A stretch of 33,040 bases of DNA from a virus. This document shows positions 3,075 to 28,456 of the stretch, in pieces. The notes beneath the pieces are model-generated. The model was not told where the DNA came from. It made no database searches and saw only the letters and a program-made list of their open reading frames with translations. Every line of letters starts with the position of its first letter. Within the stretch, counting starts at the first letter, position 1. The position numbers and the translations under genes were made by a program. Location of the stretch: positions 1 through 33,040 of IMG/VR virus record IMGVR_UViG_3300028008_000059. One strand, 5' to 3'.

Positions 3075-3077
3075 ATT

Positions 3078-3115
3078 AATATTTAATACATGTTTAAAGT
3101 TGTGTATTAAATATT
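3078..3115. repeat. Perfect 13-bp inverted repeat in the SGNH/gp6 divergent intergenic region
   Basis: Left arm AATATTTAATACA (3078-3090) is the exact reverse complement of the right arm TGTATTAAATATT (3103-3115), separated by 12 nt. It lies 3 nt upstream of the minus-strand ATG and 15 nt before the first late-promoter box of gp6. It could be a regulator-binding site, or an mRNA hairpin in the 5' leader of the SGNH transcript. There is no G+C-rich stem, so it is not a typical terminator. Confidence 0.7.
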
Positions 3116-3129
3116 GGCTTAATTTAACT

Positions 3130-6668: not shown

Positions 6669-9600
6669 TGTCATACGACGATAATCAAAACGAGAACCCA
6701 CTACCAACAGGCGGTTCCAACGGCTACTCATCAAACTCGCTATTACCTAAGTATTTTAGATCATCTAAGAATAAAAAGTTTTTAGATGCAACTCTTGATC
6801 AAATATTACAACCAGGTACAGCACAAAAGTTAAACGGCTTTTATGGCAGACGTACAGCAAAGTCTTATAGAGGTAGCGACAACTATATTGGCGATGTTTC
6901 AGTTAATAGAGAAGCATATCAATTAGAGCCAGTAGTACTTGCAAAAGATACATATGACAATGTAACATTTTATAAAGACTATAACGATTATATTAACCAA
7001 ATTAAAGCGTTCGGCGGCAATGTTGATAATCATGACTTACTAAATGGTGCAGAATATTCAGCATGGAACCCAAATATTGATTGGGATAAGTTAACAAACT
7101 TCCGAGAGTACTATTGGTTACCAAATGGACCAACAGCAATTAGTATTGCAGGCCAAAGTACAGAAGTAACAAGTGCATTTAACATCACTAGTATTGACAA
7201 TGGTAATAATCTTTCTTATGTTGTTAACGGAAACTTAACACAAAATCCTACGATTGAATTATTCAAAGGACAAACGTATACCTTTGTTGTATCAGCAACA
7301 GATATGCCATTTACAATACGTACAGAGCGTAGTTTAGATGCTGACACTGTTTATGAACTAGGTATTACTAATCAAAATATTGAAGAAGGTACTGTTACAT
7401 TTACTGTTCCACTTAATGCACCAACTAGATTGTATTATCAAAATAGTAATAACATTAACTCCGGCGGAATTATTAGAATTGCTGAAGTTGACGAAGCAAC
7501 AGCAATTGATGTAGAACAAGAAATACTTGGCAAAGCATCGTACACATCTTCTAAAGGTGTAGAGTTATTAAACGGAATGAAGTTAAACTTCATAGGTGAT
7601 GTTACTCCAGCAAAGTATGCTGTAGGCAATTGGATAATTGAAGGCGTAGGAGATAGTATTTCGTTAGTTAATACTGACGATCTTGTTATACCGTTGTCGT
7701 ATGCAGTTGATATTCCTGTGCAATATGATCAAGAAGAATTTGATAGTTTACCTTTTGGTAATGCGGCATCATATAGTGCTACTAAAGACTACATTGTTAT
7801 TAATAGAAATTCACCTGATAAAAATGCATGGTCAAGAAACAATAACTGGTATCATAGAGCAGTTATTGAAAAAAGTGCAGAGATAAATGGACAAGTAGTT
7901 TCAATTGACCAAGCACAACGAGCAAAGCGTCCTATTATTGAATTCGACAGTGGTTTAAAATTATACAATTTTGGAACAGAAAAGAAAAACGATATTGACT
8001 TAGTTGATACAGTCACTAAAGATATCTTTTCGGTAATCGAAGGCTCAACTGGTTATAATATTGACAGCGTTGATGTTACAGATGGTATGCGTATTTTGTT
8101 TACTGCTGAAAAAGATATTAGAGCAAACGGCAAGATTTATAAAGTTAAATTTCTTAAACATAACAGTACAACACCACAAATTAGTTTAATAGAAGATACT
8201 GATGCAACTCCGTTAGAAAATGAAGTTGTATTAATACGTAAAGGTACAGTAAACGCAGGCCAGCATTATTATTATAATGGCACAGCATGGCTTGCTGGAC
8301 AAGTTAAATCTAAAGTTAATCAGTCACCAATGTTTGATATGTTTGATAAAAATGGTGTTAGTTATTCAAACGCAACAACATATGAAACAAGTACATTTAC
8401 TGGCAACAAAGTTTTTAGTTATAAAGAAGGTACTGGTACTGCTGATACAGAACTAGGATTTCCAATTACATATCGAGCGCTTACTAACGTAGGTGATATT
8501 ACATTTAATTTTGATTTATTAACTGAAACATTTACACACCAAAGAGTTCAAAACATTTTAACAGAAAAATGCGATCAAGGATTTGTAAAAAAATATACAT
8601 CATTGAATGCTTTCAAATATAAAAATGGTTGGACTAAAGCCAAGTCATTAAGTACACAACGAGTAATACGTCAGTATGATGTTGATGGTGAAATTAGTCA
8701 ATTAGAAATTGATGTTTATGACAAAGCAGGTGATTTAAATGATTTAGAAGTTAGCGTATTAGTAAACAATGCACACAACTTTGATTATACATTATCACGT
8801 CAAGACGGACTAGCATTTGTAGTATTTAATAAGCCATTGGATGCAGGCGACTCTGTTATTTTAAGAACAAAGTCTGCAACTAAGAAAAATTCAAATGGTT
8901 ATTATGACTTTCCAACTAACTTAGAACATAATCCAAACAATATTAATTTAACTACATTTACCTTAGGCGAAGTAAATGATCATGTGTTTAGTATGATTGA
9001 AGACTTACCAGGCTTTACAGGAATATTTCCAGGAAATACAAACTTAGGTAATTTAGGTGATATTAGCACAGTTGGTAAAAAGTTTGTCCAACACGCAGGA
9101 CCAATTAATAATGCATTATACCACATTACTACAAAAGAAGCAAACGTAGTAAAAGCACTTGATTTTGCAAAAAATGAATTTAGAACTTTCAAAAGATCAT
9201 TTTTACAAGTTGCTGAGAACTTAGGGTTCGACGGACCTATTAAAACACATGTTGATAATGTTCTTGTTGAAGTATTAAAAAACAAAACTTCAAGTGATCC
9301 GTTTTATTTTAGTGACATGGTTCCGTACTCAGGAAATAAGCGTTTAGAATTTACAGTTTATGATCCGGAAAATAATTTCTTTAGTTTAACAAAGGCATTT
9401 GATAAAACAACACTTAGTAATAAAGCAGTAACAATTTATCAAAATGGTGTACAGTTAGCACATGGTAGAGATTATACTTTTAATACTGATGGCTTTGCTG
9501 TAATTACAGCAACAAAAGCAGACAATGATTTAATTGAAATTTTTGAATATGAAAGTACTGACGGTTGTTTTATTCCTAGTACACCAACAAAATTAGGTTT

Positions 9601-12600
9601 ATATCCTGCATACGTTCCAGAAATAATTCTTGATGATTCGTATAGAACTCCAACAAATGTTATTATCGGACATGACGGAAGTAAAACTGTTGCATATAAT
9701 GATTATAGAGATGCATTACTACTTGATTTAGAAAGAAGAATCTATAATAACATTAAATCTAAGTATGATATTACTAAACTTGATATACATGATTTTATTC
9801 CAAGTTCGTACAGAGATACAAAAATTAATATCGACAATATCGATAATGTATTATTAAGTGATTTTATTAAATGGAGTGAAAGTTTAGGCGGTATTGATTA
9901 TACAACTAATAGTTTCTACGAGTTAACTGATGCTTTCACATATAATTATTCTTATATGTCTGGTCCACAGGGTCAACAGTTAAAAGGATTTTGGCGTGGC
10001 GTTTACAAAACGGCTTACGACACAGATCATCCACATACACATCCTTGGGAGATGCTAGGCTTTACAGTTAAACCAACTTGGTTTGATACTGTTTACGGTA
10101 CAGCACCATATACAAGTAATAACTTAATACTTTGGGAAGATCTTGAAGAAGGTAAAATTGCTGAGCCAGGCAAAACAGTACGTTATAATAAAAAATATAA
10201 AAGACCAGGGTTAACAAAACATATACCTGTTGACGAAAATGGTGACTTATTAAGTCCGTTACAAAGTAAGTATGCTAGAGAATATATTTCGGAATATACT
10301 AAATTAGGATTTAAATTTGGAGATCATTCACCTGCAGAGACTGCGTGGCGATCAACTAGTGATTATGCATTTAGTTTAATTAAATCTTGGTTACTAAACC
10401 AACCAGCCAAGTTTATGTCACTAGCATGGGATACTTCTCGTATTAGTAAAAACTTAGCAGAACAATTTGTATATACTGAAAGTAATCGTTCAATATCTTT
10501 AAAGGATTTAGTGTTTACTAATGTATTTGGAGATTCTAAAAGAGTGTATACATCAGGGTTAGTAGATTATATTGTTAACTATACTTTAACTAATACAGCA
10601 ATAACTACTCCTGATTACAAAGAACAATTAACAAGTCTAAAATATCAATTAGGTATGAAACTTGGTGCATTTACTGATAAAGATAAAATGAAATTTATCT
10701 TAGACAGTAGAACTCCGTATAACAAGGGTAATGTATTTTTACCTAAAGAAAATTATCAAATAACTTTAAACACAAGTTCACCTGTTGAAGTAGTTTCTTA
10801 TAGTGGTGTAATTATAGAAAAACAAAGTTATGGATATGTTATAAGAGGCTATGACAGAGAAAATCCAGTCTTTAAAATAAACAAAGCATTAGATCGTGCA
10901 AACGACCCAGCAGTAAATGTTGGAGGTATAAGTGAAGCATTTATTGAATGGGACGAAGATAAACAATATACTGTAGACAAGTATGTAAGATATAACTCAA
11001 GTTTTTATAGAGTAATAGAAGCACATACTTCTACTACTGCATTTGACCCAGATAAGTTTACAAAAATACCTGAGTTACCAAATAGAGGCGGTAGCACAGC
11101 AGTATTCCGTAAAAACTTTGAAACATCAATCACTGAAGTTCCATACGGAACAGTATTTGTTACTATACAGGACACGGTTGATTTTATCTTAGGATATGCG
11201 GCTCAACTTGAACAAACAGGATTTAACTTTGATTTTTATAATAGTGACACTCAAGTTGTTGAAGATTGGCGTTTCAGTACAAAAGAATTTTTATACTGGA
11301 CTACACAAAACTGGTCCGCTGGTACAGTTATTGCACTAAGTCCAAGTGCTAATCAACTTAAATTTACTAGACCATATACTGTAGTAGATGACTTATATGA
11401 TAATTTTTATGATTATTCTTTAATGGAAAGTACTGGTAAACCGCTACAAGGAGAATATACAAGATTAACTCGAGAGGCTAATACTTTTGCAATTAATTTA
11501 TCAAACACAACAGACGGAATTTACTATGTACAACTTCCGTTAGTACAAGTTGAACATGTTGCTATACTTGATAATACTTCGGATTTTAAAGATGTGATTT
11601 ATTCACCTGCATCAGGTTATAGACAAGATCGTATTAAGGTAGTAGGTTATAGAACTGCAAACTGGGATGGAACATTAAACATTCCAGGCTTTATATTTGA
11701 CCAAGCAGAAGTTACAGAATGGAAACAATATAACGATTACGCAATCGGCGACACAGTCCGTTATAAAGAATACTATTATGCCGCAAAGAATAAAATTGCT
11801 GGTACTGAAAAATTTGTTGCAAACGAATGGAACAGAATAGATAAGCGTCCAGAAACTAAATTATACACAAACTTTGATTATAGAATTAATCAGTTTACAG
11901 ATTTTTATGATCTTGATTCAGATAACTTTGATAATGAACAACAGCGTATGGCGCAACATTTAATTGGTTATCAGAAGCGACAGTATTTAGAAAATATTAT
12001 TAACGATGATGTTAGTCAGTATAAATTCTATCAAGGGTTTATACAAGATAAAGGTACTAGAAATAGTATTGATAAATTGTTTGATGCATTAGCAAGCGCC
12101 GATAAAGAGTCTGTAGACTTTTATGAAGAATGGGCTGTTAAAAATAGCCAGTATGGTGCAACGTCAAACTTTGACGAAATTGAATGGCAAATAGATGAAT
12201 CAAAGTTTCAACTAAGTCCGCAACCAATTTCTTTAGTTGAAACATTACCGCCAGCAACAACAGATTTAATTTATAGAATACCTAATTATGACGTATTCTT
12301 AAAACCAGATAATTACGATGTAAATAAAATTCCAACAAAATATACTAACGAAGAGTATGTTAAAACTGTAGGATATGTAACTGGTGAAGATGTTAGTCGT
12401 GCAGTGCTTACAAAAGATAGCATAGTTAACTTTGCAATTAGTGATATTAATAAAAATGATTATATTTGGGTTGCAACAAGTAATCAAACTTGGGACGTTA
12501 TTCAGCATACTGAAACAGATTTGCGTCTTGAAAATGCAGAACCAACAGGCCAAGATGTTGAACTTACATTAAACTATACAGCACGTGAAATTCTTGTAGG

Positions 12601-15600
12601 CGATATATTTGGCATCACAAACGCAAACACAGAAGCATTGACTACGTTAGATGGATTCTACAAAGCAACTAAAGTACAAGGCAATAAAGTAACATTTACA
12701 ACAACAAATTTTGATTGGACAGAAATTGACGACACTGTTGAACTTCCTAAAGCCACTATTACTATCTTTACAAGTCAACGTACAGCAACTATAAATGATG
12801 CTAATAAAAATGTAAGTGCAAATTTAAGTAAAGATGAATTAGTTTGGATTGATGACGATGATTATGGTAAATGGACTGTACTCAAAAATACTCCAACGTA
12901 TAGTGAAAATCAGCAAATTTTAAGTTCATTAGATTTAGATAGTACAATGCATGGCTTTGGACATTCGATTAGTGTTAATGAAAACAATACTAAAATGGCA
13001 GTTGGTATTCCCTACAAAGGAAACGGAGTTGTACATGTTTATGTGCGTCCAAGTGATAGTACAAACTATGTATTAGATCAAATTATTGAAGCACCAACAG
13101 ATGTTGCAGATGCATACGACGGTAGTACTCCTACAACATCAATGAATTTTGGTGAAAGTGTTGCCCTTAGTCCAAATGGAAATTATCTTGTAATTGGCTC
13201 GCCGCAAGCATCAAACATTTTTAGTTTTTACAGAGGCGACTTTAAACAAGGCGTTAAGTATACAAAAGCACAAATTGTTAAGTATGGACCAAATCTATAC
13301 AAAGCAATTCAAAACATTGATCCAGCAACCGGAGCAATTCAATTTAGTAGTTTTGATTCGTATTTAGAGTTAGTACCTGATAGTGACAGTTCACTTGTTA
13401 ATTTATTGCAAACAGGCAATTATAAAATTAATGACACTTCAGTTAGTCACATGCTTATTAGAGCACCATTAAATGCATACGAAGGCAGTGCTAACAATGA
13501 TGATATAGTATTAGAATGGAATAACTTTAGTAAACTTAACCTTCAAGGAAGTACAGTAGATGTACAACCATTTGATGGACAATTTGCAGGAATTACAGGA
13601 GCGTTTTTAACAGCAACGCATAATATTCGTTATAAAATTGATAATGTACTAGTAATTGAAAATTTTGTAAACTTACCACAAATTGGCAATACACTTTCAA
13701 GTAGCATTGCAAGTGGTGAAGTAATTTATGTAGCAAATAGTTTAACAACTTGTACAGTATATTTGGCAAATGTAAACGGTACATTTGCAACTACAGATTC
13801 TGTATTTGTAGGAACAACACGTATTGGTGATTACGTCGAAGATTATCGTGCAGGTACAGGCAACTTAGGCGGCTACTGGTGGATTGATACACCTTCATAT
13901 ACAACAAGTGCAGATAGTTCAAATGTATTTGTTGATCCAGGACATGGATTAGTATTCCGTGATTTACTTACAACTGCTAGTGGCAGAGTAACACCAAATA
14001 TGTATCATAATATTACAACTGCTAGACAGTTAGCAATACAAGATGCTACAAATTCAGGTTCAACATTAAGTTTAATGGATCAAGCAGAATTTATGCAAAC
14101 ACTTACTTATGAAGGTGATCCAGGTGAAGTATTTGCATTACAACCATCCGACTTATGGACAGTTAGAGCACCAACAGCATTATCATTATCGATTGGCGAT
14201 ACGTTTAAAATGGTTGTTGATAGTGTTAGTGGAAATACAGATTTTACAGACTCGACATTTAGCACATCACTAATTAATAAAGAACATACAGTATATCAAT
14301 TGTGGGATGGCTATCTTGACTTTACGTTTGATGAATTTAGCCAAGCAACACAGTTACCATTTGAACCAATTATAGGTGACACTGTTTCAGACGGTGCTAC
14401 TGGTGCAACTGCAACTATTACATTCTACAAACGCCAGTTTAACACAGTGCGAATTTATGTAACTAATGTATCGGGCACTTGGAGTAAAGGTGATGGCTAT
14501 AATGAAACAGCAAAAATAAATCGAGTAAGAGGTGCATCAGTACGTCCTATAGGAACTCTTAATGGCGCATCATTATCAGGTACACGAGTAGGTAAAATTG
14601 TTGTATTACAGGAAACTACAAACTTCCCTGATGCAACAGTAACAGAATTAAACAATTTTGAATATTGGTTCTTTAATGAAACAACATTATCAGGTATACC
14701 ACGTGAAGCAAACATTCCGGCTTCAAATAATAATGATTGGCAATTAGTAACTAATATTCCAGTGTCAAGTGACAATGGTACAATAGCAAGTGGATTAGAA
14801 CTAGAAGGTATGTTTAGTGTTTATGACCTAAACGAAAAGATACAATTTAAAGTTCAAAATCATTATACAGTACCAGAAAGAAAAGCACATGCACGTTTAG
14901 GTGATGAAGTAGATTTTACACTAGAAGGAAATCTATATAGACTTAGTATTGCTTCAAAAGGTGATGGAAAATTAAATAATGCGGGTAGTATACATTTTGT
15001 TAAACACGGATCGGTTACTAAAGAACTAGTAACTACAACGTATGATTGGCAATTAGATATTGATCCAAACTTTAGAGGCGAGTTCCATACAACAGTATTC
15101 TATAAACAAGGAGAGATTGTAGAATATGAAGATAGACTTTATAAAGCATTAAGAAATATTGCAAGTGGTAGTGCGTTTGTTACACCTGATTGGGAATTAG
15201 TAACCGACGGTACAGCACATGTTGGATTTATACCAACAGCAGGCACAAACAGAATTATTGGTGAAGAAGTGTTTGATCCAGAATTTGGTGTGAGAGACTT
15301 TGCAAGACAGTTTGATCAAGATAAAGATGGTGATGTATTAATAGTAAGTTCACGAATTCAAGGTAACGATAGTTCCGGCGAACGTGTTATAGTAGTTTAC
15401 AGGCGTTTACCAGAAGGTCAAATGACAGTATCACAAACTATTAAACCTCCATACGAAGATTTATCAACAGGGTCATTTACGGGCTTTGGTGATAGCATTA
15501 GTATTAGTAATGACGGCGAGTTAATTGCTATTGGCGAACCTTACAACGATGACTACAAACGAGATCAAGGTAAAGTATACATTTACAAATTAGTGAATGG

Positions 15601-18600
15601 ACAGTTTGTACTATCTCAAGAAATACAAAGTCCAAATAATGAACAAGCAGAACATTTTGGTGCTTACTTAAATTTTGATGGAAATCAGTTAGCAGTAACT
15701 TCATTGAACGGCGATATTGAAAAACCAACTACGTTTGACCTTAACACAACAGTATTTGATGACGAATTTACAAACTTTAAATCAGTTGAAATGGACAGCG
15801 GCATTATTTTCATGTATGAAAGAATTAATAATTCGATGCTATTTGCACAAGAATTTATTATAGACGAACCGTTAGCAATGAACTTTGGTAAAAACTTGTT
15901 AGTAAATAATAATCACATTTACACAGCAATACCTGAAGTAACAGACTTGTTAACATATCAAGGTATGATTGTTGACTTTAGAAAAACAATCGGCGCCAAG
16001 TCTTGGAACGTACATAGATCACCAATTGATCAAGTAGATATTAATAAAATTAAAAGTGCTTTCTTATATAATGTAAAAACAAACACACTTGTTGAAGATC
16101 TAGATTATATTGATCCAGTACAAGGTAAAGTAGCAGGCATAGCAGAACAAGAACTATCATATAAAACATATTATGACCCAGCAGTATTCAGTATTGGCGA
16201 CGACACAGTTGTAATTGATGAAAATAATTCTTGGGGTAGAGATTATGTAGGCCAATTATGGTGGGATATTAGTGCAGTTAAATTTTATAACTATCAACAA
16301 AATAATATTACATACCAAACAAACTATTGGGGAGAAGTATTCCCAGGTACTAGTGTAGAAGTTTATGAATGGGTAGAAAGTGATTTACTACCAAGTGAAT
16401 GGGATGCTTTATCAGATAGTGAAGAAGGTGTTGCACAAGGAATTAGTGGAACAACTAGATACGGAGATTTTGTATATTCACAAAAACTAACATGGGATCC
16501 TATTTCAAAAACTAGTAAACCTAAGTATTTTTACTGGGTAGCAAATAAGCGTGTTACACCACGTGTTGAAGGCAGACGTATTACAGCATACGATGTTAAA
16601 AGATTAATTGAAGATCCAGTTGGACAAGGATATAAGTTTGTTGGCTTAATGGCTAAAGACAGATTTGTATTGTTTAATTGTGAATCACTATTAAGTGGCG
16701 ACGATGTTGCATTTAATTTGCGTTATCATACACTTGATAATGTTGATCAAAATATCCATAATGAATATCAAATGCTCACACAAGGAGTTGGATCAAGTAA
16801 ACCAAACCGTGACATTGAGCAAAAATGGATTGATAGTTTAGTTGGTTATGACAAACAGTTTAGATTAGTACCAGATCCAAAACTTAGTGCAAAAATAAAA
16901 TATGGAATTAATAATAATCCAAGACAATCGATGTTTATTAACAAAGCAGAAGCACTTAAAGAAGTAGTTGACCGTGTTAATTCTATATTAATAAACAATA
17001 TTATTGTTGATGAGTTTGATATTAGTGATTTAACTAAAAGCGATCCGTTACCATTATCGACATCAAGACGGTATGATCTAAAAATTGACACTTTTGAAGA
17101 TTTACAATATGTTGGTGTAGCAAAACGCATCACTGCTTCTTTAACACCAACAATAGTTGATGGTAAAATTACAGGAGTTACTATTACAAACTCAGGTAGA
17201 GGATATATTGACCCAACATATACATCAACTGTTGGCGGTATAAGACTTGGACCGCAAGTAACTGTTACTGGTATTGGTAAAGACGCTGTTCTTGAAACAG
17301 AAATTAATGAACTAGGACAAATTACTACAGTTAATATTATTGACCCAGGTACAGGATACGATGAAAATACAGTAATTACTGCAAGAAACTTTACAGTTAT
17401 TGTTACAACAGATTCAACAGTATTAAATAAGTGGGCGTTATATAATTATAATGGTACAAAGTGGAATAGAACTATAAGTCAGCGTTTTGATACTAATTTA
17501 TATTGGGATTACCAAGACTGGTATGATATAGGTTATAATGAGTTCACAGAAATTAATTCATTAATAGACTTTAGTTACCAATTAACGTCGATTGAGAATG
17601 ACATTGGTGATACTGTTAAGATATCAAGTGTTGGCTCTGGTGGCTGGTTGCTATTAGAAAAGATTGCAAACTTACAAACAGAAGATTACACACAAAATTA
17701 TAAAGTTGTTGGTAAAGAAAATGCAACTATACAGTTTAGTCAAAACTTATATAACACAGTTATTAACAAAACTGGGTACGATACTGATACTTTTGACATA
17801 GCATTTTATGATAGCCAACCAGTTAAAGAAACTAGAATTATACTTGAAACAATTAGAGATAAAATATTTGTAGATAACTTAGATGTACATTATAATGAAT
17901 TGTTTATTGCTAGTATACGTTATGCATTTAGTGAACAGCCTAATATTGACTGGGCATTTAAAACATCTTTCATAAAAGCACAACATAACGTAGGTGATTT
18001 AACACAAAAAGTTACATTTAAGAACGACAACATTGAAAACTTCCAAGATTATATTAACGAAGTTAAACCATTCAAAACAAAAATTAGAGAATATGTCTCT
18101 AGTTATGAAAAAACAGATCCAACTAATAGTGTAGTAACAGATTTTGACTTACCGCCAAAGTATGATTTTGCTAAAAAGAAAATTAGTAGTTCTACTGCTA
18201 AACTTAAAGATAATACAATTACAAGTATGCCAAATAGTACTAGCACTTACCCAGATAAGCACTGGTTAGAAAATAGCGGATATGAAATATCAAGTATTAA
18301 CGTTGGTAATGCAGGTACTGGATACATTTTACCTCCGACAGTTAGTATAGAAGGCGGCGGAGGTTCGGGTGCAAAAGCAAAAGCGTTCCTTAATGCTGGC
18401 AAGGTTTCAAAAATTGAAGTTACAGCGCCAGGCACTGGATATTTAACAGCACCGGCAATAATACTAAATGGTACTACATCCGATGGCGGCACACTAGCAG
18501 TTGCTAGAGCAGTATTAGGAAATGGTAAAGTTCGTGGAACTCATGTTATATCACGTTTTGATAGAATTAGCGGACAACCTTACTATTTAGAAGTTGCTAG

Positions 18601-21475
18601 AACACAAACATTTACAGGTGATTCAAAAACTTCAGTATATAAACTAAAATGGCCAATGAACTTAAATGGTGCAAAGGTAAAAATTTACATTGATGGTGTT
18701 GAATTACTAAAAAGTGAATATACATATAACAACTTTGCAGACACTACCAAGTCTTACACTAGAAAAATTGGTCAAGTAATATTTACTACACCGCCTTTAT
18801 TAACTAAAGTTGTAAAAATTGATTATGAATTAGCACCAGACTTGTTAACAGCACAAGATAGAATTCAATCTTATTATAATCCAGTTGATGGTATGGTAGG
18901 TAAAGATATTTCACAGTTAATGACAGGTGTTGACTTTGGTGGAGTTGAAGTTAAGAGTTTTGATTTTGCAGGCAACGGTGGTTTTGAAACAAAAGGTTAC
19001 GGTATCGAAGCATACGACTTATATGATGCAACGTTTAACGATTTAATATTCTACTTAGACGGATCAACAGCAGTATTACAATGGGACACTCCGTTAGAAA
19101 ACGGAGTTGTGTATAATCTTTACAAAAATAATGTAAGACTTGATGATCCAAACTGGCCAAGTAGCCCTACTAATCCAAATGCTGTTCTAGCAAGTATTAC
19201 AGGCGATGATGCACTAGTAGAATTTAATATTCAAGATTACGGAATTACTAGTAGAGATGACGACATCTTTGTTATAAGAAAAACAACTAGTGATGGTAGT
19301 TTCCTTCCAGATCCTGCAAGTTACGATACACAGTTAGACGGTGGTGTATTAGCATATAGTAATGCTAAAGGTATTTCAGCAAGTGAAATTGTTGTTGACG
19401 GCGATGGATTTATTACGCCAATGACAACTACTGGTCCAGAAGAATTGATTCCAGGCAAAATTTCAGATACTGTTGACATTAAGGTATTCCATAGACCGGA
19501 TGCAGGTACAAGTAACGTACAAACACAGTTCTTTACAACAGATGGAACAACACAGACATACGATCTTGGAATACATCCTCATAATAGTGAAGCAGTATTT
19601 GTATCACTTGACAATGTTGTATCAACAGCATACACAATTAACTATGCTAATGATACAATTACTTTTACAACTGCTCCGGCAGCCGGCAAAGTACTAAGCA
19701 TAGTTACACTTGGTGTAAACGGACAGACAATTTTAGATATTAACAAGTTTATAGCAGACGGTAGTACAAATACATATACAACTAATATACAGTATCAAAC
19801 TGGAGTAAGCCATTTTGTTAATATAAACGGCCAAGCAATTACATCAACACTAAGTGAAGGTGTAGATGGATGGTTTGTAATTACATTTGATACAGCCCCG
19901 CAAACAGGACAAGTTGTTGATTACGGATTGTTCTACTCAACAGGAACTAACTTTAGTGCAACTAATGTACAAACTTTGATCGGTGACGGAAGTTCGACAA
20001 TATTTGATATGTCTCCTGCAATTATAGGCGGTTTGCCAACAGCACAGAACGCTATTGTAAGTATAAACGGCGCAATACAAGATGCTGGATATAATGTAGA
20101 TTTTACAATTACAGATTCTAATGTTAGAGAATATCAAGTCCAAGAATGGCAAGTTTTCTCAAACAGTGTTAGAGGTGAAGATATTGAAGTATACTTAAAC
20201 AATGAATTATTAAGAAGAAACATTCAATACAGATGGGATAGTGCAAACAACAGTGTTATATTATCAGCAGGTATTGGATCGCTTAATGATATAATTGATG
20301 TGTTCTTTAGTATTGATGGTCAATATGCATTTGGATATATCGGAGAAGATGACGATAGTAGTACTAAGTTTATTTCAGATAGAACTAAAATTTACTTTGA
20401 TACAGCACCAGCACTAGGCGATACAATTAAAATTACAGGCTTTAGTAATCATGACGTTCAAGATATTGAACGTATTAAATATGATTTAATAAGTCGTGTT
20501 CCGTTAGTACCAGGAACAACTAACTATCAAGAATATATTAATCTTAGTAGCGGACTTGTAAAACTTAGACATAAATCACAAGACTCAGAATATGTATGGG
20601 TTATAGTTAATGGAGTTAAACTAGCGCCAAACGTTGATTATTATGTAACTGAAGATCTTATGCATGTTAAAATTATCTCACAACTTAGTGCAAACGATAA
20701 AGTTGAGTACATACAGTTTGGTGAAGAACAATTAACACATAGATTTGGATTTAGACAGTTTAAAGACATATTGAACCGTGTTCACTACAAGCGGTTAGAC
20801 AATGCGAATAAGTATAAATTAGCACAAGACTTAAATTGGTGGGATACTAGAATCGAACTAGTTGATGCTTCCAACTTACCAGAACCTGGTAAGAAGAAAC
20901 AAATACCAGGAGTTGTGTTTATTAACGGTGAAAGAATTGAGTACTACGTGAAACAAGGAAATAGTTTACGCCAACTACGTAGAGGCACATTAGGCACTGG
21001 TGTAAGTACACTTCTTACAAGTGGTACTGAAGTAAGAGACCAAAGTCCAGGCGAAAATATTCCGTACAAAGATCAGACACTTACACAGTTGTTTACAGCA
21101 GACGGTACAACGGCTTCATATGAATTAGATTTTACACCTACACAAGGTATAAATGAATTTGAAGTATTTGTTGCAGGGCGCAGACTTCGTAAAAATACAA
21201 TTAGTAGTTACCAGGTAGATACTAAAGATATTAACGGAAACTTTGTAACTAGGTTTATTGCACAGGATAGTGTAGAAGGTGATACTACATTACCAGTAGA
21301 ATTTACATTAACTGGAAGTACATTAGACTTAACAGTAACACCTGAAGCAGAACAGAAGGTTGTAGTGGTTAGAAGAGTTGGCCAAACATGGACTAAGGCA
21401 GGAGAAAGCCTAGTTGATGCAAAAAATGACATAGCGGAGTTTCTTAAGGCGAGAACAACGGAACTACCTAAATAA
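6668..21475 (+). CDS. Giant (4,935-residue) modular baseplate/tail structural protein, positional candidate for the gp7 slot
   Basis: One uninterrupted frame of 14.8 kb directly coupled to gp6. The N-terminus (SLLPKYFRSSKNKKFLDATL, residues 24-43, then a W/Y-rich block to about 155) resembles the start of giant structural proteins of marine T4-like phages. Modules seen: a cupredoxin-like beta domain (about 190-275) without obvious metal ligands; four carbohydrate-binding-module-5/12-like hairpins (about 1425, 1682, 2192 and 2802); FG-GAP/beta-propeller blades at about 2094 and 2159 and again at about 2878, 2940, 2996 and 3071; two pairs of GxGY beta repeats (about 3510/3558 and 3880/3920); a C-terminal array of phage beta-sandwich units starting DGxTxxY (about 4288, 4361, 4437, 4810); and the INGERIEYY...RRGTLGTG motif (about 4751-4780). 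No signal peptide or membrane segment was seen. Its position after gp6 corresponds to T4 gp7, but homology to gp7 cannot be shown by eye. Likely role: peripheral baseplate scaffold with glycan-binding surfaces. Confidence 0.8.
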   Translation: MSYDDNQNENPLPTGGSNGYSSNSLLPKYFRSSKNKKFLDATLDQILQPGTAQKLNGFYGRRTAKSYRGSDNYIGDVSVNREAYQLEPVVLAKDTYDNVTFYKDYNDYINQIKAFGGNVDNHDLLNGAEYSAWNPNIDWDKLTNFREYYWLPNGPTAISIAGQSTEVTSAFNITSIDNGNNLSYVVNGNLTQNPTIELFKGQTYTFVVSATDMPFTIRTERSLDADTVYELGITNQNIEEGTVTFTVPLNAPTRLYYQNSNNINSGGIIRIAEVDEATAIDVEQEILGKASYTSSKGVELLNGMKLNFIGDVTPAKYAVGNWIIEGVGDSISLVNTDDLVIPLSYAVDIPVQYDQEEFDSLPFGNAASYSATKDYIVINRNSPDKNAWSRNNNWYHRAVIEKSAEINGQVVSIDQAQRAKRPIIEFDSGLKLYNFGTEKKNDIDLVDTVTKDIFSVIEGSTGYNIDSVDVTDGMRILFTAEKDIRANGKIYKVKFLKHNSTTPQISLIEDTDATPLENEVVLIRKGTVNAGQHYYYNGTAWLAGQVKSKVNQSPMFDMFDKNGVSYSNATTYETSTFTGNKVFSYKEGTGTADTELGFPITYRALTNVGDITFNFDLLTETFTHQRVQNILTEKCDQGFVKKYTSLNAFKYKNGWTKAKSLSTQRVIRQYDVDGEISQLEIDVYDKAGDLNDLEVSVLVNNAHNFDYTLSRQDGLAFVVFNKPLDAGDSVILRTKSATKKNSNGYYDFPTNLEHNPNNINLTTFTLGEVNDHVFSMIEDLPGFTGIFPGNTNLGNLGDISTVGKKFVQHAGPINNALYHITTKEANVVKALDFAKNEFRTFKRSFLQVAENLGFDGPIKTHVDNVLVEVLKNKTSSDPFYFSDMVPYSGNKRLEFTVYDPENNFFSLTKAFDKTTLSNKAVTIYQNGVQLAHGRDYTFNTDGFAVITATKADNDLIEIFEYESTDGCFIPSTPTKLGLYPAYVPEIILDDSYRTPTNVIIGHDGSKTVAYNDYRDALLLDLERRIYNNIKSKYDITKLDIHDFIPSSYRDTKINIDNIDNVLLSDFIKWSESLGGIDYTTNSFYELTDAFTYNYSYMSGPQGQQLKGFWRGVYKTAYDTDHPHTHPWEMLGFTVKPTWFDTVYGTAPYTSNNLILWEDLEEGKIAEPGKTVRYNKKYKRPGLTKHIPVDENGDLLSPLQSKYAREYISEYTKLGFKFGDHSPAETAWRSTSDYAFSLIKSWLLNQPAKFMSLAWDTSRISKNLAEQFVYTESNRSISLKDLVFTNVFGDSKRVYTSGLVDYIVNYTLTNTAITTPDYKEQLTSLKYQLGMKLGAFTDKDKMKFILDSRTPYNKGNVFLPKENYQITLNTSSPVEVVSYSGVIIEKQSYGYVIRGYDRENPVFKINKALDRANDPAVNVGGISEAFIEWDEDKQYTVDKYVRYNSSFYRVIEAHTSTTAFDPDKFTKIPELPNRGGSTAVFRKNFETSITEVPYGTVFVTIQDTVDFILGYAAQLEQTGFNFDFYNSDTQVVEDWRFSTKEFLYWTTQNWSAGTVIALSPSANQLKFTRPYTVVDDLYDNFYDYSLMESTGKPLQGEYTRLTREANTFAINLSNTTDGIYYVQLPLVQVEHVAILDNTSDFKDVIYSPASGYRQDRIKVVGYRTANWDGTLNIPGFIFDQAEVTEWKQYNDYAIGDTVRYKEYYYAAKNKIAGTEKFVANEWNRIDKRPETKLYTNFDYRINQFTDFYDLDSDNFDNEQQRMAQHLIGYQKRQYLENIINDDVSQYKFYQGFIQDKGTRNSIDKLFDALASADKESVDFYEEWAVKNSQYGATSNFDEIEWQIDESKFQLSPQPISLVETLPPATTDLIYRIPNYDVFLKPDNYDVNKIPTKYTNEEYVKTVGYVTGEDVSRAVLTKDSIVNFAISDINKNDYIWVATSNQTWDVIQHTETDLRLENAEPTGQDVELTLNYTAREILVGDIFGITNANTEALTTLDGFYKATKVQGNKVTFTTTNFDWTEIDDTVELPKATITIFTSQRTATINDANKNVSANLSKDELVWIDDDDYGKWTVLKNTPTYSENQQILSSLDLDSTMHGFGHSISVNENNTKMAVGIPYKGNGVVHVYVRPSDSTNYVLDQIIEAPTDVADAYDGSTPTTSMNFGESVALSPNGNYLVIGSPQASNIFSFYRGDFKQGVKYTKAQIVKYGPNLYKAIQNIDPATGAIQFSSFDSYLELVPDSDSSLVNLLQTGNYKINDTSVSHMLIRAPLNAYEGSANNDDIVLEWNNFSKLNLQGSTVDVQPFDGQFAGITGAFLTATHNIRYKIDNVLVIENFVNLPQIGNTLSSSIASGEVIYVANSLTTCTVYLANVNGTFATTDSVFVGTTRIGDYVEDYRAGTGNLGGYWWIDTPSYTTSADSSNVFVDPGHGLVFRDLLTTASGRVTPNMYHNITTARQLAIQDATNSGSTLSLMDQAEFMQTLTYEGDPGEVFALQPSDLWTVRAPTALSLSIGDTFKMVVDSVSGNTDFTDSTFSTSLINKEHTVYQLWDGYLDFTFDEFSQATQLPFEPIIGDTVSDGATGATATITFYKRQFNTVRIYVTNVSGTWSKGDGYNETAKINRVRGASVRPIGTLNGASLSGTRVGKIVVLQETTNFPDATVTELNNFEYWFFNETTLSGIPREANIPASNNNDWQLVTNIPVSSDNGTIASGLELEGMFSVYDLNEKIQFKVQNHYTVPERKAHARLGDEVDFTLEGNLYRLSIASKGDGKLNNAGSIHFVKHGSVTKELVTTTYDWQLDIDPNFRGEFHTTVFYKQGEIVEYEDRLYKALRNIASGSAFVTPDWELVTDGTAHVGFIPTAGTNRIIGEEVFDPEFGVRDFARQFDQDKDGDVLIVSSRIQGNDSSGERVIVVYRRLPEGQMTVSQTIKPPYEDLSTGSFTGFGDSISISNDGELIAIGEPYNDDYKRDQGKVYIYKLVNGQFVLSQEIQSPNNEQAEHFGAYLNFDGNQLAVTSLNGDIEKPTTFDLNTTVFDDEFTNFKSVEMDSGIIFMYERINNSMLFAQEFIIDEPLAMNFGKNLLVNNNHIYTAIPEVTDLLTYQGMIVDFRKTIGAKSWNVHRSPIDQVDINKIKSAFLYNVKTNTLVEDLDYIDPVQGKVAGIAEQELSYKTYYDPAVFSIGDDTVVIDENNSWGRDYVGQLWWDISAVKFYNYQQNNITYQTNYWGEVFPGTSVEVYEWVESDLLPSEWDALSDSEEGVAQGISGTTRYGDFVYSQKLTWDPISKTSKPKYFYWVANKRVTPRVEGRRITAYDVKRLIEDPVGQGYKFVGLMAKDRFVLFNCESLLSGDDVAFNLRYHTLDNVDQNIHNEYQMLTQGVGSSKPNRDIEQKWIDSLVGYDKQFRLVPDPKLSAKIKYGINNNPRQSMFINKAEALKEVVDRVNSILINNIIVDEFDISDLTKSDPLPLSTSRRYDLKIDTFEDLQYVGVAKRITASLTPTIVDGKITGVTITNSGRGYIDPTYTSTVGGIRLGPQVTVTGIGKDAVLETEINELGQITTVNIIDPGTGYDENTVITARNFTVIVTTDSTVLNKWALYNYNGTKWNRTISQRFDTNLYWDYQDWYDIGYNEFTEINSLIDFSYQLTSIENDIGDTVKISSVGSGGWLLLEKIANLQTEDYTQNYKVVGKENATIQFSQNLYNTVINKTGYDTDTFDIAFYDSQPVKETRIILETIRDKIFVDNLDVHYNELFIASIRYAFSEQPNIDWAFKTSFIKAQHNVGDLTQKVTFKNDNIENFQDYINEVKPFKTKIREYVSSYEKTDPTNSVVTDFDLPPKYDFAKKKISSSTAKLKDNTITSMPNSTSTYPDKHWLENSGYEISSINVGNAGTGYILPPTVSIEGGGGSGAKAKAFLNAGKVSKIEVTAPGTGYLTAPAIILNGTTSDGGTLAVARAVLGNGKVRGTHVISRFDRISGQPYYLEVARTQTFTGDSKTSVYKLKWPMNLNGAKVKIYIDGVELLKSEYTYNNFADTTKSYTRKIGQVIFTTPPLLTKVVKIDYELAPDLLTAQDRIQSYYNPVDGMVGKDISQLMTGVDFGGVEVKSFDFAGNGGFETKGYGIEAYDLYDATFNDLIFYLDGSTAVLQWDTPLENGVVYNLYKNNVRLDDPNWPSSPTNPNAVLASITGDDALVEFNIQDYGITSRDDDIFVIRKTTSDGSFLPDPASYDTQLDGGVLAYSNAKGISASEIVVDGDGFITPMTTTGPEELIPGKISDTVDIKVFHRPDAGTSNVQTQFFTTDGTTQTYDLGIHPHNSEAVFVSLDNVVSTAYTINYANDTITFTTAPAAGKVLSIVTLGVNGQTILDINKFIADGSTNTYTTNIQYQTGVSHFVNINGQAITSTLSEGVDGWFVITFDTAPQTGQVVDYGLFYSTGTNFSATNVQTLIGDGSSTIFDMSPAIIGGLPTAQNAIVSINGAIQDAGYNVDFTITDSNVREYQVQEWQVFSNSVRGEDIEVYLNNELLRRNIQYRWDSANNSVILSAGIGSLNDIIDVFFSIDGQYAFGYIGEDDDSSTKFISDRTKIYFDTAPALGDTIKITGFSNHDVQDIERIKYDLISRVPLVPGTTNYQEYINLSSGLVKLRHKSQDSEYVWVIVNGVKLAPNVDYYVTEDLMHVKIISQLSANDKVEYIQFGEEQLTHRFGFRQFKDILNRVHYKRLDNANKYKLAQDLNWWDTRIELVDASNLPEPGKKKQIPGVVFINGERIEYYVKQGNSLRQLRRGTLGTGVSTLLTSGTEVRDQSPGENIPYKDQTLTQLFTADGTTASYELDFTPTQGINEFEVFVAGRRLRKNTISSYQVDTKDINGNFVTRFIAQDSVEGDTTLPVEFTLTGSTLDLTVTPEAEQKVVVVRRVGQTWTKAGESLVDAKNDIAEFLKARTTELPK
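7235..7500 (+). other. Cupredoxin-like module within the giant protein
   Basis: Residues about 190-277 read NPTIELFKGQTYTFVV, then MPFTIRT, then GTVTFTVPLNAPTRLYYQNS and GGIIRI. This follows the marine phage/bacterial cupredoxin-like pattern of an N-terminal strand, a PF.I+T strand, and a TF.VP..AP..LYY strand. In related modules the last strand usually continues into C-x-x-H...M-x-G ligands; here it reads LYYQNSNNINSGG, so copper binding is not expected. Confidence 0.5.
12947..13240 (+). other. FG-GAP/beta-propeller-like blades 1-2 of the giant protein
   Basis: Residues 2094-2191 hold two repeats of the form FG.S.....G..L.IG.P.....G...VY: HGFGHSISVNENNTKMAVGI with GVVHVYVRP, and MNFGESVALSPNGNYLVIGS with IFSFYRG. 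They end directly at a carbohydrate-binding-module-like hairpin (from 13241). The matching blades resume at about 15296. Confidence 0.55.
15296..15990 (+). other. FG-GAP/beta-propeller-like blades 3-6 of the giant protein
   Basis: Residues about 2877-3108 hold four more repeats: RQFDQDKDGDVLIVSS, TGFGDSISISNDGELIAIGE with GKVYIYKL, EHFGAYLNFDGNQLAVTS with GIIFMYER, and MNFGKNLLVNNNHIYTAIPE. They follow a carbohydrate-binding-module-like hairpin (about 2802-2846). Together with the blades at 12947-13240 they may complete a single propeller. Confidence 0.55.
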
Positions 21476-22108: not shown

Positions 22109-24133
22109 ATGCCTTATACAATTAATTTTACAGATGTAACTAACAAAGGTAGTATTACAGTCGAAGACAACGACATAAATGCACAAACTAGTTTAAGTCT
22201 AGTTGGGCGTAACACTACTAGTTATGGAGTTGCATTTAATCAAAACTTTTTAAAATTATTAGAAAATTTTGCTAACACTAGTTCTCCGTCAAATCCAGTC
22301 GAAGGACAACTTTGGTACGATAGTACAGCAGGCAATGAGCAACTTAAAGTATACGATGGTACAACTTGGGTAGCAAGTGGCGGCCTTAAAAAAGCAACAA
22401 ACGAACCAGATGCGTCAAGCAGTTTAACTGGTGACCTCTGGGTTGATACTGATAACCAACAGTTGTATTTGTATACAGGTTCTGGTTGGACACTAATTGG
22501 TCCTGAATATGCCGGCGGATTAAATACCGGAATATCAGCGGCAACAATACTTGGTCAAGATAATATTGATTATACAGCAATACAAGTTGATGTAGATGCA
22601 AAGCCGGTTGCTATTATTAGTACAAATACATTTACGCCAAAAGCACAAATTAACGGATTTGGTCAAATTAATCCAGGCATTAATTTAAGTACAGCAGATA
22701 TTACTGGTAGTGGTGCCGCAAGATTTTATGGTCCTGCAGAACAAGCAGAAAATTTAGTTGTAGGCGGAGAAAAAATTGCCGCGGCAAACTTCTTACGTGG
22801 AGATGTTGTAAGTACAACAACAAACCAATTAAAAGTTAACACAGACGATGGTATTATTCTTGGTAGTGGTAACCAAGTAACACTTGGTGTTGAGGGACAA
22901 ATTGGCGTTATCAGTCACAATACAAGCGGCGCAAGTTTAGATATCCGTGTTAATGATCAAGGTACTACTAAAACAGTAATGCGTGTTGATTCAACAACAA
23001 ATATTGGTATTAATAATACAGCACCGAGCGAAGCATTAGATGTTACAGGCAATATCAAAGTAAGTAGTAATATTACAATTGACGGAACAACAGCAAGTAC
23101 TAATTTTGGCACAGGAAGTCTAGTTGTAAAAGGCGGCGCAGGCGTTGCAGGCGATATGAATATCGGCGGAACAATTAATATTCAAGGCGACACTGAAACT
23201 AGAAATATTATTCCAGATGTAACTAATACTAGAAGTATTGGCTCACAAGCAAACAAATTTACAGGTATATATGCAACAACATTTGTAGGTAACTTAACAG
23301 GTAATGTTACAGGACAAGTTAGCGGTAGAGCAGGTAGTGCAGATAAACTATCAAGTTCAACAAACTTTTCATTACAAGGCGAAGTTAGTGCGCCAACAAT
23401 TATATTTGATGGCCAAGCAGGCGGAACAACTAAAACATTCCAAACAACTATTGCAAACAGTTTTATTAGTAATAAAACATATACTAACAGTGCTGATGCA
23501 AGTGACGAATTCCTACTTAACAGAGTACAAGGACAAGTTGGATTATATAGAATTAGTAGACGAGATTTCTTATCAACAGTTCCAGTTAATCCTCCGGGCG
23601 TAATGATGCCTTATGCAGGCACAACAGCACCAAATTATTGGTTATTGTGTTATGGACAAGAAGTATTACAAGCCGACTATCCAGAACTATTTGAAGTAAT
23701 TGGATTTACATACAAGCAAAAAGGATTATTGACAGATAACGGTGTAGCAAGATTTGCACTACCAGATATGCGTGGTAGAAGTGCTGTGGGTCTAGACGAC
23801 ATGGGCGGCACAGGTGCAAGTAGAGTTTCCGGACTACAAGGTAGTGAACTTGGCAACTCAGGCGGTGCTGAAAGTGTTACTATTCAAAGTACAAACTTAC
23901 CAGAACACGAACACGATCTAGTTGTTGAAGGAACACAGTTTTACGCAATTTTAGATGCGGCAAAAGGTGCTAATAGTCCAGTATCATCAATTACATTTGA
24001 TGCACCGACAGGACAAAATGCAGGGCAGGCTGTAACAACAAGTGGTGGAGTTGCAGGAACAACTGGACAAGCAATGGATAATTTAAGTCCGTTTATGTCC
24101 TTAAATTACATAATTTATAGTGGGAAAGTTTAA
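22109..24133 (+). CDS. Tail fibre 1 with C-terminal Tail Collar domain
   Basis: 674 residues. Residues 1-135 are the N-terminal module shared with the next two genes (YTINFTDVTNKGSITV..., LVGRNTTSYG, FNQNFLKLLENFAN, EGQLWYDS, GDLWVDTDNQQLYLY, W.LIGP). The middle holds fibre-type beta repeats (LDVTGNIKVSSNITI; NTRSIGSQANKFTGIYATTF; FVGNLTGNVTG). From about residue 488 a phage Tail Collar domain follows: PPGVMMPYAGTTAPNYWLLCYGQ, then FALPDMRGRSAVGLD and TNLPEHEHD, ending LSPFMSLNYIIYSGKV. Collar domains occur in T4 gp12-type short fibres and in many host-recognition fibres; the HEH cluster resembles the metal-binding histidines of gp12, which is inference. It is the only one of the three fibres with a collar domain. 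The stop overlaps the next ATG by 1 nt. Confidence 0.88.
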   Translation: MPYTINFTDVTNKGSITVEDNDINAQTSLSLVGRNTTSYGVAFNQNFLKLLENFANTSSPSNPVEGQLWYDSTAGNEQLKVYDGTTWVASGGLKKATNEPDASSSLTGDLWVDTDNQQLYLYTGSGWTLIGPEYAGGLNTGISAATILGQDNIDYTAIQVDVDAKPVAIISTNTFTPKAQINGFGQINPGINLSTADITGSGAARFYGPAEQAENLVVGGEKIAAANFLRGDVVSTTTNQLKVNTDDGIILGSGNQVTLGVEGQIGVISHNTSGASLDIRVNDQGTTKTVMRVDSTTNIGINNTAPSEALDVTGNIKVSSNITIDGTTASTNFGTGSLVVKGGAGVAGDMNIGGTINIQGDTETRNIIPDVTNTRSIGSQANKFTGIYATTFVGNLTGNVTGQVSGRAGSADKLSSSTNFSLQGEVSAPTIIFDGQAGGTTKTFQTTIANSFISNKTYTNSADASDEFLLNRVQGQVGLYRISRRDFLSTVPVNPPGVMMPYAGTTAPNYWLLCYGQEVLQADYPELFEVIGFTYKQKGLLTDNGVARFALPDMRGRSAVGLDDMGGTGASRVSGLQGSELGNSGGAESVTIQSTNLPEHEHDLVVEGTQFYAILDAAKGANSPVSSITFDAPTGQNAGQAVTTSGGVAGTTGQAMDNLSPFMSLNYIIYSGKV

Positions 24134-25950
24134 TGGCATATAAACTCAATAAAACGGATGGTACGTTACTAGTAGATCTAATTGATGGTACTATTGATAC
24201 AAATAGCACATCGCTTACTTTAGTTGGACGCAACTATTCCGGATACGGTGAAGCATTTAACGAAAACTTTATTAGTTTACTAGAAAGTTTTTCAAATACA
24301 AATGCTCCATTAAATCCGATCAACGGACAACTTTGGTTTGATACTAGTGAAGCACGTTTAAAAGTTTATGACACAACACAGTTTAAAGCAGTAGGTGGAC
24401 CATTTGTACAGAAGACACAGCCAGTAATGGTTGCAGGCGACTTGTGGATGGACAATGTTAATAACCAACTTTACTTTTATGATGGAACAGATTTATCATT
24501 AGCAGGTCCAATATACCAATCAAGTCAAGGTGAAACAGGTTTTAGAATTGAATCAATTCGAGATACACAAGATAGAAGTAGAACACTTGCTAGTTTATAT
24601 TTAGGTAATGGCACTGACGGGTCAACAGATAGAGTAGCAGTAATTAGTAATGTAGAATTTACTCCAGCGATTGGATACACTATTGCAGGTATTACAGGTA
24701 ATGTTAAAAAGGGTATTAACATTATTGATAAAACTAATTTTATATATGAAGGTACTGCTGATGCGGCACGGGCTTTAATTAAAGCAGACGGAACAAAAGT
24801 TGGAGCAGATAACTTTGTAAGTTCAACTACAGATAATACTGTTACAGGGTCACTTACAGTAAGTAACTCAGCAGGCATTACAATTGGTCCAAACGCTAAC
24901 CAAGTATTAAGTATAATTGGTAATTCGTTTGTTACTGCTAACCAGCAGTTAGATGAAAATTATATTATTAAAGTTACAAGTACAGCCGCAGGATCACAGC
25001 AAGTAGACGCAGTGTTTGTTGATGCGGCAAACAAACGTGTTGGTATTTTTGATAACACTCCAGAATACACACTCGATGTTGCAGGTGATATTCGTGTTAC
25101 GGGTAACTTATTAGTTGAAGGTGCAACAGCAAGTATTGATGTTAGTACGCTAAGAGTTGAAGATAAACAAATCGAACTTGCTATCACAAGTGACAGTACA
25201 TTATTAACTGACTCGGGTGTAGACGATGCTGGTATAGTTGTAAGAGTAACAGGTGCAGATAAAAAATGGACTTGGCTACAAGCAACAAACAGTTGGACAA
25301 CAACAGAAAATATTGATGCAACAACAGGTAATGAATATAAAGTTGCAGGTTCATCAGTGCTTAATGCTACAACACTAGGAACTGGAGTTGTTAATTCAAG
25401 TCTTACAAATGTAGGAACATTAACAGAATTAGATGTTGATAACATTAATTTAAACGGTAGTACTATTAGCGGAGCAAGCGGCTTAACAATAGCGGCTGGC
25501 GGTGATGTTAATTTCTCAAATAGTAAAATTGCAGGTATAGCACAACCAACACAAGACACAGATGCGGCATCAAAAGTTTATGTTGATGAATCATTAGCGG
25601 CAGCGGCGATTTCATTTAGTATGGACTCTACTGGCTTAAATGATACACAAATTGGTTTAGTATTGAATGACTTAGTTCCAGGCGCAAGTGTTGCTAACGG
25701 AACAACAGCACGTATTCACTGTACTACACTAGGTGGCGCAAGTGTTACAGGTATTGACGTTGCGGCAGTAGCAACTAAATCATTCATAGCAGTAGACGCC
25801 GCAGGTGTACAAAACGAATCAGTATTACAAGATATTGGGTTTTCTGCGGCAACAGGTAGTGTTACAGTTAGTGTAACAAGAGCATTAAAAGAGTATGTCA
25901 CATCAGGCGGAAGTTGGGCATTTAGCCAAAACTTAACATCTAGTGTGTAA
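24133..25950 (+). CDS. Tail fibre 2, paralogous N-terminal module, unique C-terminus
   Basis: 605 residues. Residues 1-130 repeat the module of fibre 1: YKLNKTDGTLLVDLIDG, LVGRNYSGYGEAFNENFISLLESFSN, INGQLWFDT, LKVYD, AGDLWMDNVNNQLYFYDG and LAGP. The middle carries LDVAGDIRVTGNLLVEGATASIDV and LRVEDKQIELA...DAGIVVRV, a fibre repeat style common in marine T4-like phages, then KIAGIAQPTQDTDAASKVYVDE, resembling the strand that precedes a coiled-coil or knob. The last ~110 residues (about 495-605: SFSMDSTGLNDTQIGLVLND... to SWAFSQNLTSSV) match nothing I recognise and are a candidate receptor-binding tip. It is coupled to fibre 1 by the TTTAATG overlap. The Thr/Ser/Ala-rich codons here produce long antisense frames that are not genes. 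Confidence 0.85.
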   Translation: MAYKLNKTDGTLLVDLIDGTIDTNSTSLTLVGRNYSGYGEAFNENFISLLESFSNTNAPLNPINGQLWFDTSEARLKVYDTTQFKAVGGPFVQKTQPVMVAGDLWMDNVNNQLYFYDGTDLSLAGPIYQSSQGETGFRIESIRDTQDRSRTLASLYLGNGTDGSTDRVAVISNVEFTPAIGYTIAGITGNVKKGINIIDKTNFIYEGTADAARALIKADGTKVGADNFVSSTTDNTVTGSLTVSNSAGITIGPNANQVLSIIGNSFVTANQQLDENYIIKVTSTAAGSQQVDAVFVDAANKRVGIFDNTPEYTLDVAGDIRVTGNLLVEGATASIDVSTLRVEDKQIELAITSDSTLLTDSGVDDAGIVVRVTGADKKWTWLQATNSWTTTENIDATTGNEYKVAGSSVLNATTLGTGVVNSSLTNVGTLTELDVDNINLNGSTISGASGLTIAAGGDVNFSNSKIAGIAQPTQDTDAASKVYVDESLAAAAISFSMDSTGLNDTQIGLVLNDLVPGASVANGTTARIHCTTLGGASVTGIDVAAVATKSFIAVDAAGVQNESVLQDIGFSAATGSVTVSVTRALKEYVTSGGSWAFSQNLTSSV

Positions 25951-25958
25951 GATAAATA
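25951..25958 (+). promoter_or_regulatory. T4-type late promoter box (GATAAATA) before fibre 3
   Basis: GATAAATA begins right after the fibre 2 stop and lies 24 nt before ATG 25983. A TATAAT follows at 25963-25968 but has no -35 at a usual distance, so the late box is the better candidate. AAAGGG just before the ATG is the ribosome site. Confidence 0.5.
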
Positions 25959-25982
25959 TAGTTATAATTAAAGGGTTGAAAC

Positions 25983-28403: not shown

Positions 28404-28428
28404 CAAAAAGTAAAATGTGTAGTATACT
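28400..28428 (+). promoter_or_regulatory. Strong sigma70-type promoter before paralog B
   Basis: TTGACA (28400-28405), a 17-bp spacer, then TATACT (28423-28428): a perfect -35 and a 5/6 -10. The -35 overlaps the stop codon of paralog A. Downstream the -10 is repeated (TATACTATATACTATAC, 28423-28439), which may give a second start register or a protein site. The start codon is at 28457 with GGAG at 28444-28447. Confidence 0.75.
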
Positions 28429-28456
28429 ATATACTATACGAATTGGAGAAAAGTAA

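Follow-up and report, generated by a model that had tools for sequence, protein, structure and literature searches.

Does a long insertion in a phage structural protein part two independent structures or sit inside one, and is it passed between phages as a cassette? The question is raised by the window, by which we mean the whole 33,040-nucleotide stretch of viral DNA analysed here (IMG/VR record IMGVR_UViG_3300028008_000059, positions 1 to 33,040), where a single open reading frame (ORF) at 6668-21475 (+) encodes a giant protein of 4,935 amino acids. Residues 2094-3108 (12947-15990) hold two blocks of FG-GAP-like blades, which a first-pass annotation had read as one split β-propeller with a large, possibly exchangeable, receptor-binding insert in an inter-blade loop. 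We find good reason to regard the region as a single FG-GAP propeller in a giant protein at the T4 gene 7 position, with a nested insertion in blade 2 that is inherited with the gene; our confidence in both its anatomy and its inheritance is considerable. In the model and in the comparison with relatives, a hairpin resembling carbohydrate-binding module (CBM) families 5/12 occupies the loop between strands b and c of blade 2, and in this lineage a 455-residue domain has entered the last loop of that hairpin, leaving the propeller unbroken.

Both blade blocks belong to one predicted propeller

An AlphaFold2 model of residues 2030-3150, calculated from an alignment of 39 sequences, has a mean predicted local distance difference test score (pLDDT) of 87.1 and a predicted template modelling score (pTM) of 0.74, and it shows seven four-stranded blades in a single closed ring with the insert in one loop. 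Blade boundaries, obtained by reading the model strands against the sequence, are as follows.

12839-12922, +, strands before blade 1 (residues 2058-2085; model strands 29-34, 41-45, 51-56)
12953-13090, +, blade 1 (W1, 2096-2141; model strands 71-112, blade profile)
13145-13201, +, blade 2, strands a-b (W2, 2160-2178; model; fixed length of 15 residues, standard deviation 0, in 39 relatives)
14807-14869, +, blade 2, strands c-d (2714-2734; model)
14897-15055, +, blade 3 (W3, 2744-2796; model strands 715-767, pLDDT mostly at least 90)
15290-15442, +, blade 4 (W4, 2875-2925; model), with the sole DxDxDG motif (residue 2883; motif scan)
15494-15625, +, blade 5 (W5, 2943-2986; Pfam, blade profile, model)
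15656-15856, +, blade 6 (W6, 2997-3063; model)
15890-16018, +, blade 7 (W7, 3075-3117; model)

The strands at 2058-2085 probably contribute a strand that closes the ring. When the whole model is compared by Foldseek, the insert leads to a large root-mean-square deviation (rmsd), and VIA-align was used instead. A single alignment to integrin αM (7usl; Z 28.1, rmsd 3.2, 352 residues) spans model residues 47-1078, that to the seven-bladed WDR61 (3ow8; Z 27.2, rmsd 2.7, 289/293 residues) spans 49-1078, and G-protein β subunits align with Z ~27 over ~300 residues. Since these matches are all closed seven-bladed propellers, two separate sheets are excluded at the level of the model. The sequence agrees with this assignment: FG-GAP_2 (PF14312) exceeds the Pfam cut-off (34.8 bits versus 23; window piece 15275-16027, E 1e-6), and it scores 47.6 and 58.8 bits in L069 and L095, two insert-free relatives whose blades are all consecutive in sequence. 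A blade profile built from L069 recovers window blades at 2096-2142, 2160-2203 and 2939-2988 with independent E values (i-E) of 3e-3, 1e-4 and 6e-8, respectively; 20 protein shuffles gave one match below 0.1 in total.

We conclude that the 2094-3108 region is, as modelled, one closed seven-bladed FG-GAP (integrin-type) propeller, a claim that concerns the propeller fold and the FG-GAP motif and not an integrin domain proper. The first-pass annotation was thus right that the blades are FG-GAP-like and that both blocks make up one closed propeller with a large insert in one loop, and the blocks themselves are real; its count of six blades was one short, as blade 3 and strands c-d of blade 2 had been counted as insert. 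Fold-similar propellers also occur as short separate phage proteins in BFVD, namely A0A2L0UZX4 of Atu_ph07 and H6WG31 of cyanophage S-TIM5.

A domain nested in a hairpin nested in blade 2

In the model, blade 2 is interrupted between strands b and c by 535 residues (2179-2713), ~455 of which (2231-2685) make up a new domain. The layers of this interruption, and a second hairpin further along the ring, are placed as follows.

13220-13357, +, left half of a CBM5/12-like hairpin in the blade 2 b-c loop (2185-2230; blade-2 profile positions 1-70, i-E 6e-13)
13358-14722, +, ~455-residue β-rich domain in the hairpin (2231-2685, edges within ~10 residues; model, relatives, split profile)
14723-14764, +, right half of the first hairpin, with last strand NDWQLVTNIPV (2686-2699; blade-2 profile resumes at position 65, i-E 0.0057)
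15056-15289, +, second CBM5/12-like hairpin, between blades 3 and 4 (2797-2874; model, loop table, Pfam, PDB matches)

Relatives that lack the large domain (L203, L190, L191) carry a complete CBM5/12-like hairpin in the same loop, which terminates in QDWxxV and is followed by ~23 residues to strand c. A profile of blade 2 plus hairpin, made from eight such relatives, aligns to the window as two separate segments: profile positions 1-70 cover residues 2161-2230 (i-E 6e-13) and positions 65-121 cover residues 2685-2743 (i-E 0.0057). The break falls at about positions 58-77, both in the window and in all 12 other insert-bearing proteins tested, where right-hand pieces reach 1.7e-10 (L009), 2.5e-10 (L042) and 9e-10 (L068); in L202, which lacks the insert, the match runs unbroken over positions 1-100. 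Because the profile breaks at one shared point, the 455-residue domain lies in the last loop of a hairpin within blade 2, and residues 2185-2230 and 2686-2699 would pair as a single hairpin, as judged from sequence profiles. Three states are therefore found among extant proteins: a bare loop (L069, L095), a loop with a complete hairpin (L203, L190, L202) and a split hairpin.

This arrangement revises several details of the first-pass annotation, which had placed an insert of ~600-680 residues in an inter-blade loop with matching hairpins at its edges. A large insert is indeed there, at the smaller sizes given above and inside a blade; hairpins near 2192 and at ~2800-2846 are present and CBM5/12-like, although both fall below the PF02839 cut-off (13.7 and 19.0 bits versus 26.2), which only a copy at residues 1427-1460 passes. 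The 2802-2846 hairpin lies between blades 3 and 4, and the insert is in fact bordered on each side by half of a single split hairpin.

Across the 39 sequences, the loop between strands b and c of blade 2 varies in length from 10 to 792 residues, and the blade 3-4 loop, which holds the second hairpin, is short in L069, L041, L036 and L044; four segments, a-b in blades 1, 2 and 5 and c-d in blade 6, are constant in length. Loops at least 25 residues longer than their shortest form account for 115/507 b-c or d-a loops versus 10/546 a-b or c-d loops. In a β-propeller, b-c and d-a loops lie on one face and a-b and c-d loops on the other, so the insertions crowd one face. The distance from blade 2b to 5a in 96 proteins is bimodal: it is 124-481 residues in the 25 that lack a homologue of the insert, and in the 71 that have one it is 745-1040. 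Searches of PDB, Pfam and PHROG gave no usable sequence match for the 455-residue family; a Gp7_5th match in one of 30 inserts (E 0.0089) is not significant for 30 tests and was rejected as chance.

The insert is inherited with its gene among sampled lineages

Relatives bear directly on whether the insert is exchangeable or hypervariable, as had been proposed. Over 528 pairs, insert identity follows that of the blades (r 0.93) and of the N-terminal part of the giant protein (r 0.88), and in trees of the N-terminal part, C-terminal part, blades and insert from 30 lineages, most strong splits are common to all, with 0 strongly supported conflicts. Searching with the insert itself yielded 80 loci. 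W1-W2b lies immediately before it in 79 of them, 51-70 residues away, and W2c-W3 immediately after it in 78, 22-26 residues away, so that the spacing hardly varies; the exceptions are cut by the locus end, and in none of the 80 was the domain found outside the propeller site. The insert does diverge somewhat faster than the flanking conserved parts, and somewhat more than downstream tail proteins (73% identity versus 82-88% for relative L002).

Presence of the insert requires two changes on the tree. L202 falls within the insert clade with strong support and its blades resemble those of that clade, so L202 is a natural, clean loss of the insert that leaves the whole hairpin; recombinational replacement as the cause was rejected, its blades being closest to those of insert-bearing relatives. 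These comparisons give no sign of exchange and indicate that the insert is stably transmitted along with the gene rather than swapped as a cassette, at a sampled scale set by loci collected through similarity to this phage group, so that rare swaps with distant phages could escape.

A giant, probable baseplate protein with a variable slot

The propeller lies in the middle of a protein whose ends are shared more widely.

3192-6668, +, gp6-like baseplate wedge protein, 1158 residues (PHROG 10646 and 219, baseplate wedge subunit)
6668-21475, +, giant virion protein, 4,935 residues, putatively at the T4 gene 7 position (ORF; PHROG 10938; PA5oct homologue gp355)
6668-12502, +, conserved N-terminal part, ~residues 1-1945 (common to PA5oct and Atu_ph07)
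16025-21472, +, C-terminal part, ~residues 3120-4935 (partly common to PA5oct and Atu_ph07)

The start of the giant gene overlaps the stop of the gp6-like gene, tail collar/fibre-like genes follow downstream in a PHROG search, and the protein matches PHROG 10938, a virion structural protein; its PA5oct homologue gp355 is annotated as detected by electrospray ionization tandem mass spectrometry (ESI-MS/MS). The frame is 100% identical over compared parts of 721 to 2,091 residues in three further contigs (L001, L004, L061) and is thus not an assembly error. Relatives reside on contigs of up to 357-365 kb and are therefore jumbo phages. The window is a fragment of a marine jumbo phage and the giant protein is a probable baseplate protein, which by gene order would occupy the position of T4 gene 7.

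No other long stretch of the giant protein is as poorly conserved as the slot around the insert. Alignment to the PA5oct homologue ends at residue 1945 and resumes at 3113, with ~95 residues between, and the Atu_ph07 slot holds ~1,500 residues of other sequence with Gly-rich repeats. Pfam detects no FG-GAP in either homologue, so the whole propeller is optional at the level of phage groups. The content of a gp7-position slot thus differs by more than 1,000 residues between groups, which makes the slot a natural place to seek group-specific attachment parts.

Possible roles of the decorated face

Several points weigh against the structure and placement proposed here. The propeller is a predicted model resting on 39 aligned rows; the right half of the hairpin matches weakly in the window and strongly in relatives only, and its pairing with the left half comes from the profile; loops were assigned to faces by general topology. 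The gp7 placement draws on gene order and the PA5oct homologues, as neither hhalign nor hmmsearch finds similarity to T4 gp7, and a profile comparison with T4 gp6-gp11 gave nothing. T4 gp7 is also missing from the VIA-align rows, but these are taken up by propellers and carry no weight on this point.

We infer that the propeller would lie at the baseplate rim and present one decorated face, that of the b-c and d-a loops; the other face and the chain ends would tie it to the wedge. On the decorated face, the insert and hairpins could make the contacts, whether with the host envelope or with fibre proteins docked on the baseplate. Both uses are conceivable because myophage receptor-binding proteins attach to the gp7-type wedge (PMC10811340), and the hairpins would not by analogy decide between them, since phage Milano gp124 uses a similar pair within a module that binds the tail.

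A tentative proposal, to which we give nearly even chances, is a docking or structural platform, in which other proteins of the baseplate or tail fibres would be held by the hairpins and the insert. The attachment of receptor-binding proteins just mentioned speaks for it, as do the solved structures whose sequences best match the second hairpin. These are N-terminal modules of tail fibres and include Milano gp124, which is wedged between two baseplate proteins (PMC10811340); vertical inheritance would also suit a structural role. The absence of the insert from 25/96 relatives argues that it is not needed for assembly in general.

A vertically inherited domain that touches the cell surface, much as the integrin αI domain took over ligand binding from its propeller, may also be considered, though we think it somewhat doubtful. 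Here the inserted domain at blade 2, the gathering of large loops on a single face of a propeller of integrin type and the somewhat faster divergence all fit, and αI, between blades 2 and 3, is the ligand-binding part of integrins that carry it (PMC3192720). The Pfam, PHROG and PDB searches, however, link the insert to no known binding domain by sequence, and separate downstream tail collar/fibre-like proteins could do the binding. An extended proposal, that an integrin-type propeller was made into an adhesin holder by stepwise nesting, from bare loop to hairpin to domain, with the innermost domain contacting the host as an independent counterpart of αI, strikes us as unlikely.

An exchangeable receptor-binding cassette, swapped among phages and setting host range, would account for the poorly conserved slot, the difference in insert presence between clades and the crowding of large loops on one face. 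It is largely refuted among the sampled lineages by the lack of strong tree conflict with blades, N- or C-terminal part, by the correlation with the blades, by the confinement of the domain to one site and by a divergence only moderately faster than that of downstream tail proteins, and we deem it very improbable. Two incomplete sheets or two propellers, suggested by blade blocks ~700 residues apart, can be dismissed almost entirely at the level of the model, as a single structural alignment draws residues from both blocks and the blades run consecutively in relatives that lack the insert.

Other features of the window and its relatives

Elsewhere in the giant protein, relatives carry extra residues (mean 25-40) at ~181-240, 4141-4200 and 4801-4860. 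A Gly-rich motif, GTGYILPPTVSIEGGGGSGAKAKA, at 18263-18481 (residues 3866-3938) matches PHROG 460, "head closure", a label we rejected because the repeat recurs in several copies in the Atu_ph07 slot. Downstream, three consecutive tail genes at 22109-27461 have homologous N-terminal parts (32-42% cross-matches over ~250-390 residues in relatives), which indicates duplication, and two adjoining genes at 27495-29401, of 302 and 314 residues, are apparently paralogous (46-48% second matches in relatives). Glycosyltransferase-like frames, judged by eye, follow in series at 29754-33040. Upstream, positions 1-1463 and 2220-3074 (-) hold what we take by eye to be GH19-like and CHAP-like lysis or cell-wall frames and a reverse-strand SGNH-hydrolase-like frame. 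Among the relatives, the 153-kb and 335-kb contigs L298 and L299 (PBPT01000082.1, PBPT01000016.1) encode the giant phage protein and are assigned to the Red Sea Neomarinimicrobiota metagenome-assembled genome (MAG) RS350; the phage contigs were probably binned together with this MAG, the other reading being that its organism was infected by the phage.

Comparison with known systems

In gene order the giant gene resembles T4 gene 7 and its counterpart in PA5oct, each following a gp6-like gene with overlapping stop and start and preceding collar/fibre genes, but the giant protein is about five times longer than T4 gp7/BW3 and carries a propeller. PA5oct gp355 and Atu_ph07 gp180 share with it a homologous N-terminal portion of 1,900 residues and some stretches of the C-terminal region, and differ in that no propeller was detected in their slot. 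The N-terminal module of Milano gp124 repeats the motif of the second hairpin in a weak sequence match; there the hairpins are stand-alone tail-attachment domains of a trimeric spike, whereas those in the window are predicted propeller loops. The likeness to CBM5/12 chitin-binding modules lies in the short motif Y..GD.V.y...LY.A......W..v, with both propeller hairpins below the Pfam cut-off, and the name "carbohydrate-binding" is not evidence for receptor binding because the similar Milano gp124 pair binds the tail.

The closest parallel is the integrin α propeller, likewise seven-bladed and FG-GAP, with a domain at blade 2 in some lineages and none in others. On general propeller topology, the phage insert would lie opposite the face that bears the a-b/c-d (calcium) loops. 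This b-c/d-a class of face is where integrin αI domains sit (PMC3192720; PMC12422189). The systems differ in that αI falls between blades 2 and 3 while the phage insert is placed within the blade 2 b-c loop, inside a hairpin; in that the phage insert is β-rich and has no sequence link to vWA; and in that the phage propeller has one DxDxDG only, in blade 4, where human integrins have calcium sites in several blades. That propellers can carry inserted domains is already known from integrin αI. A literature search of limited coverage, and so weak evidence of absence, found no such architecture in jumbo phages and, among the domain-insertion papers listed, the integrin case as the only close parallel. 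What is new, as far as we have found, is the site within a blade, the nested split hairpin and the survival of relatives that preserve the steps of this three-level nesting, so that its assembly can be traced and each layer individually tested for folding and function.

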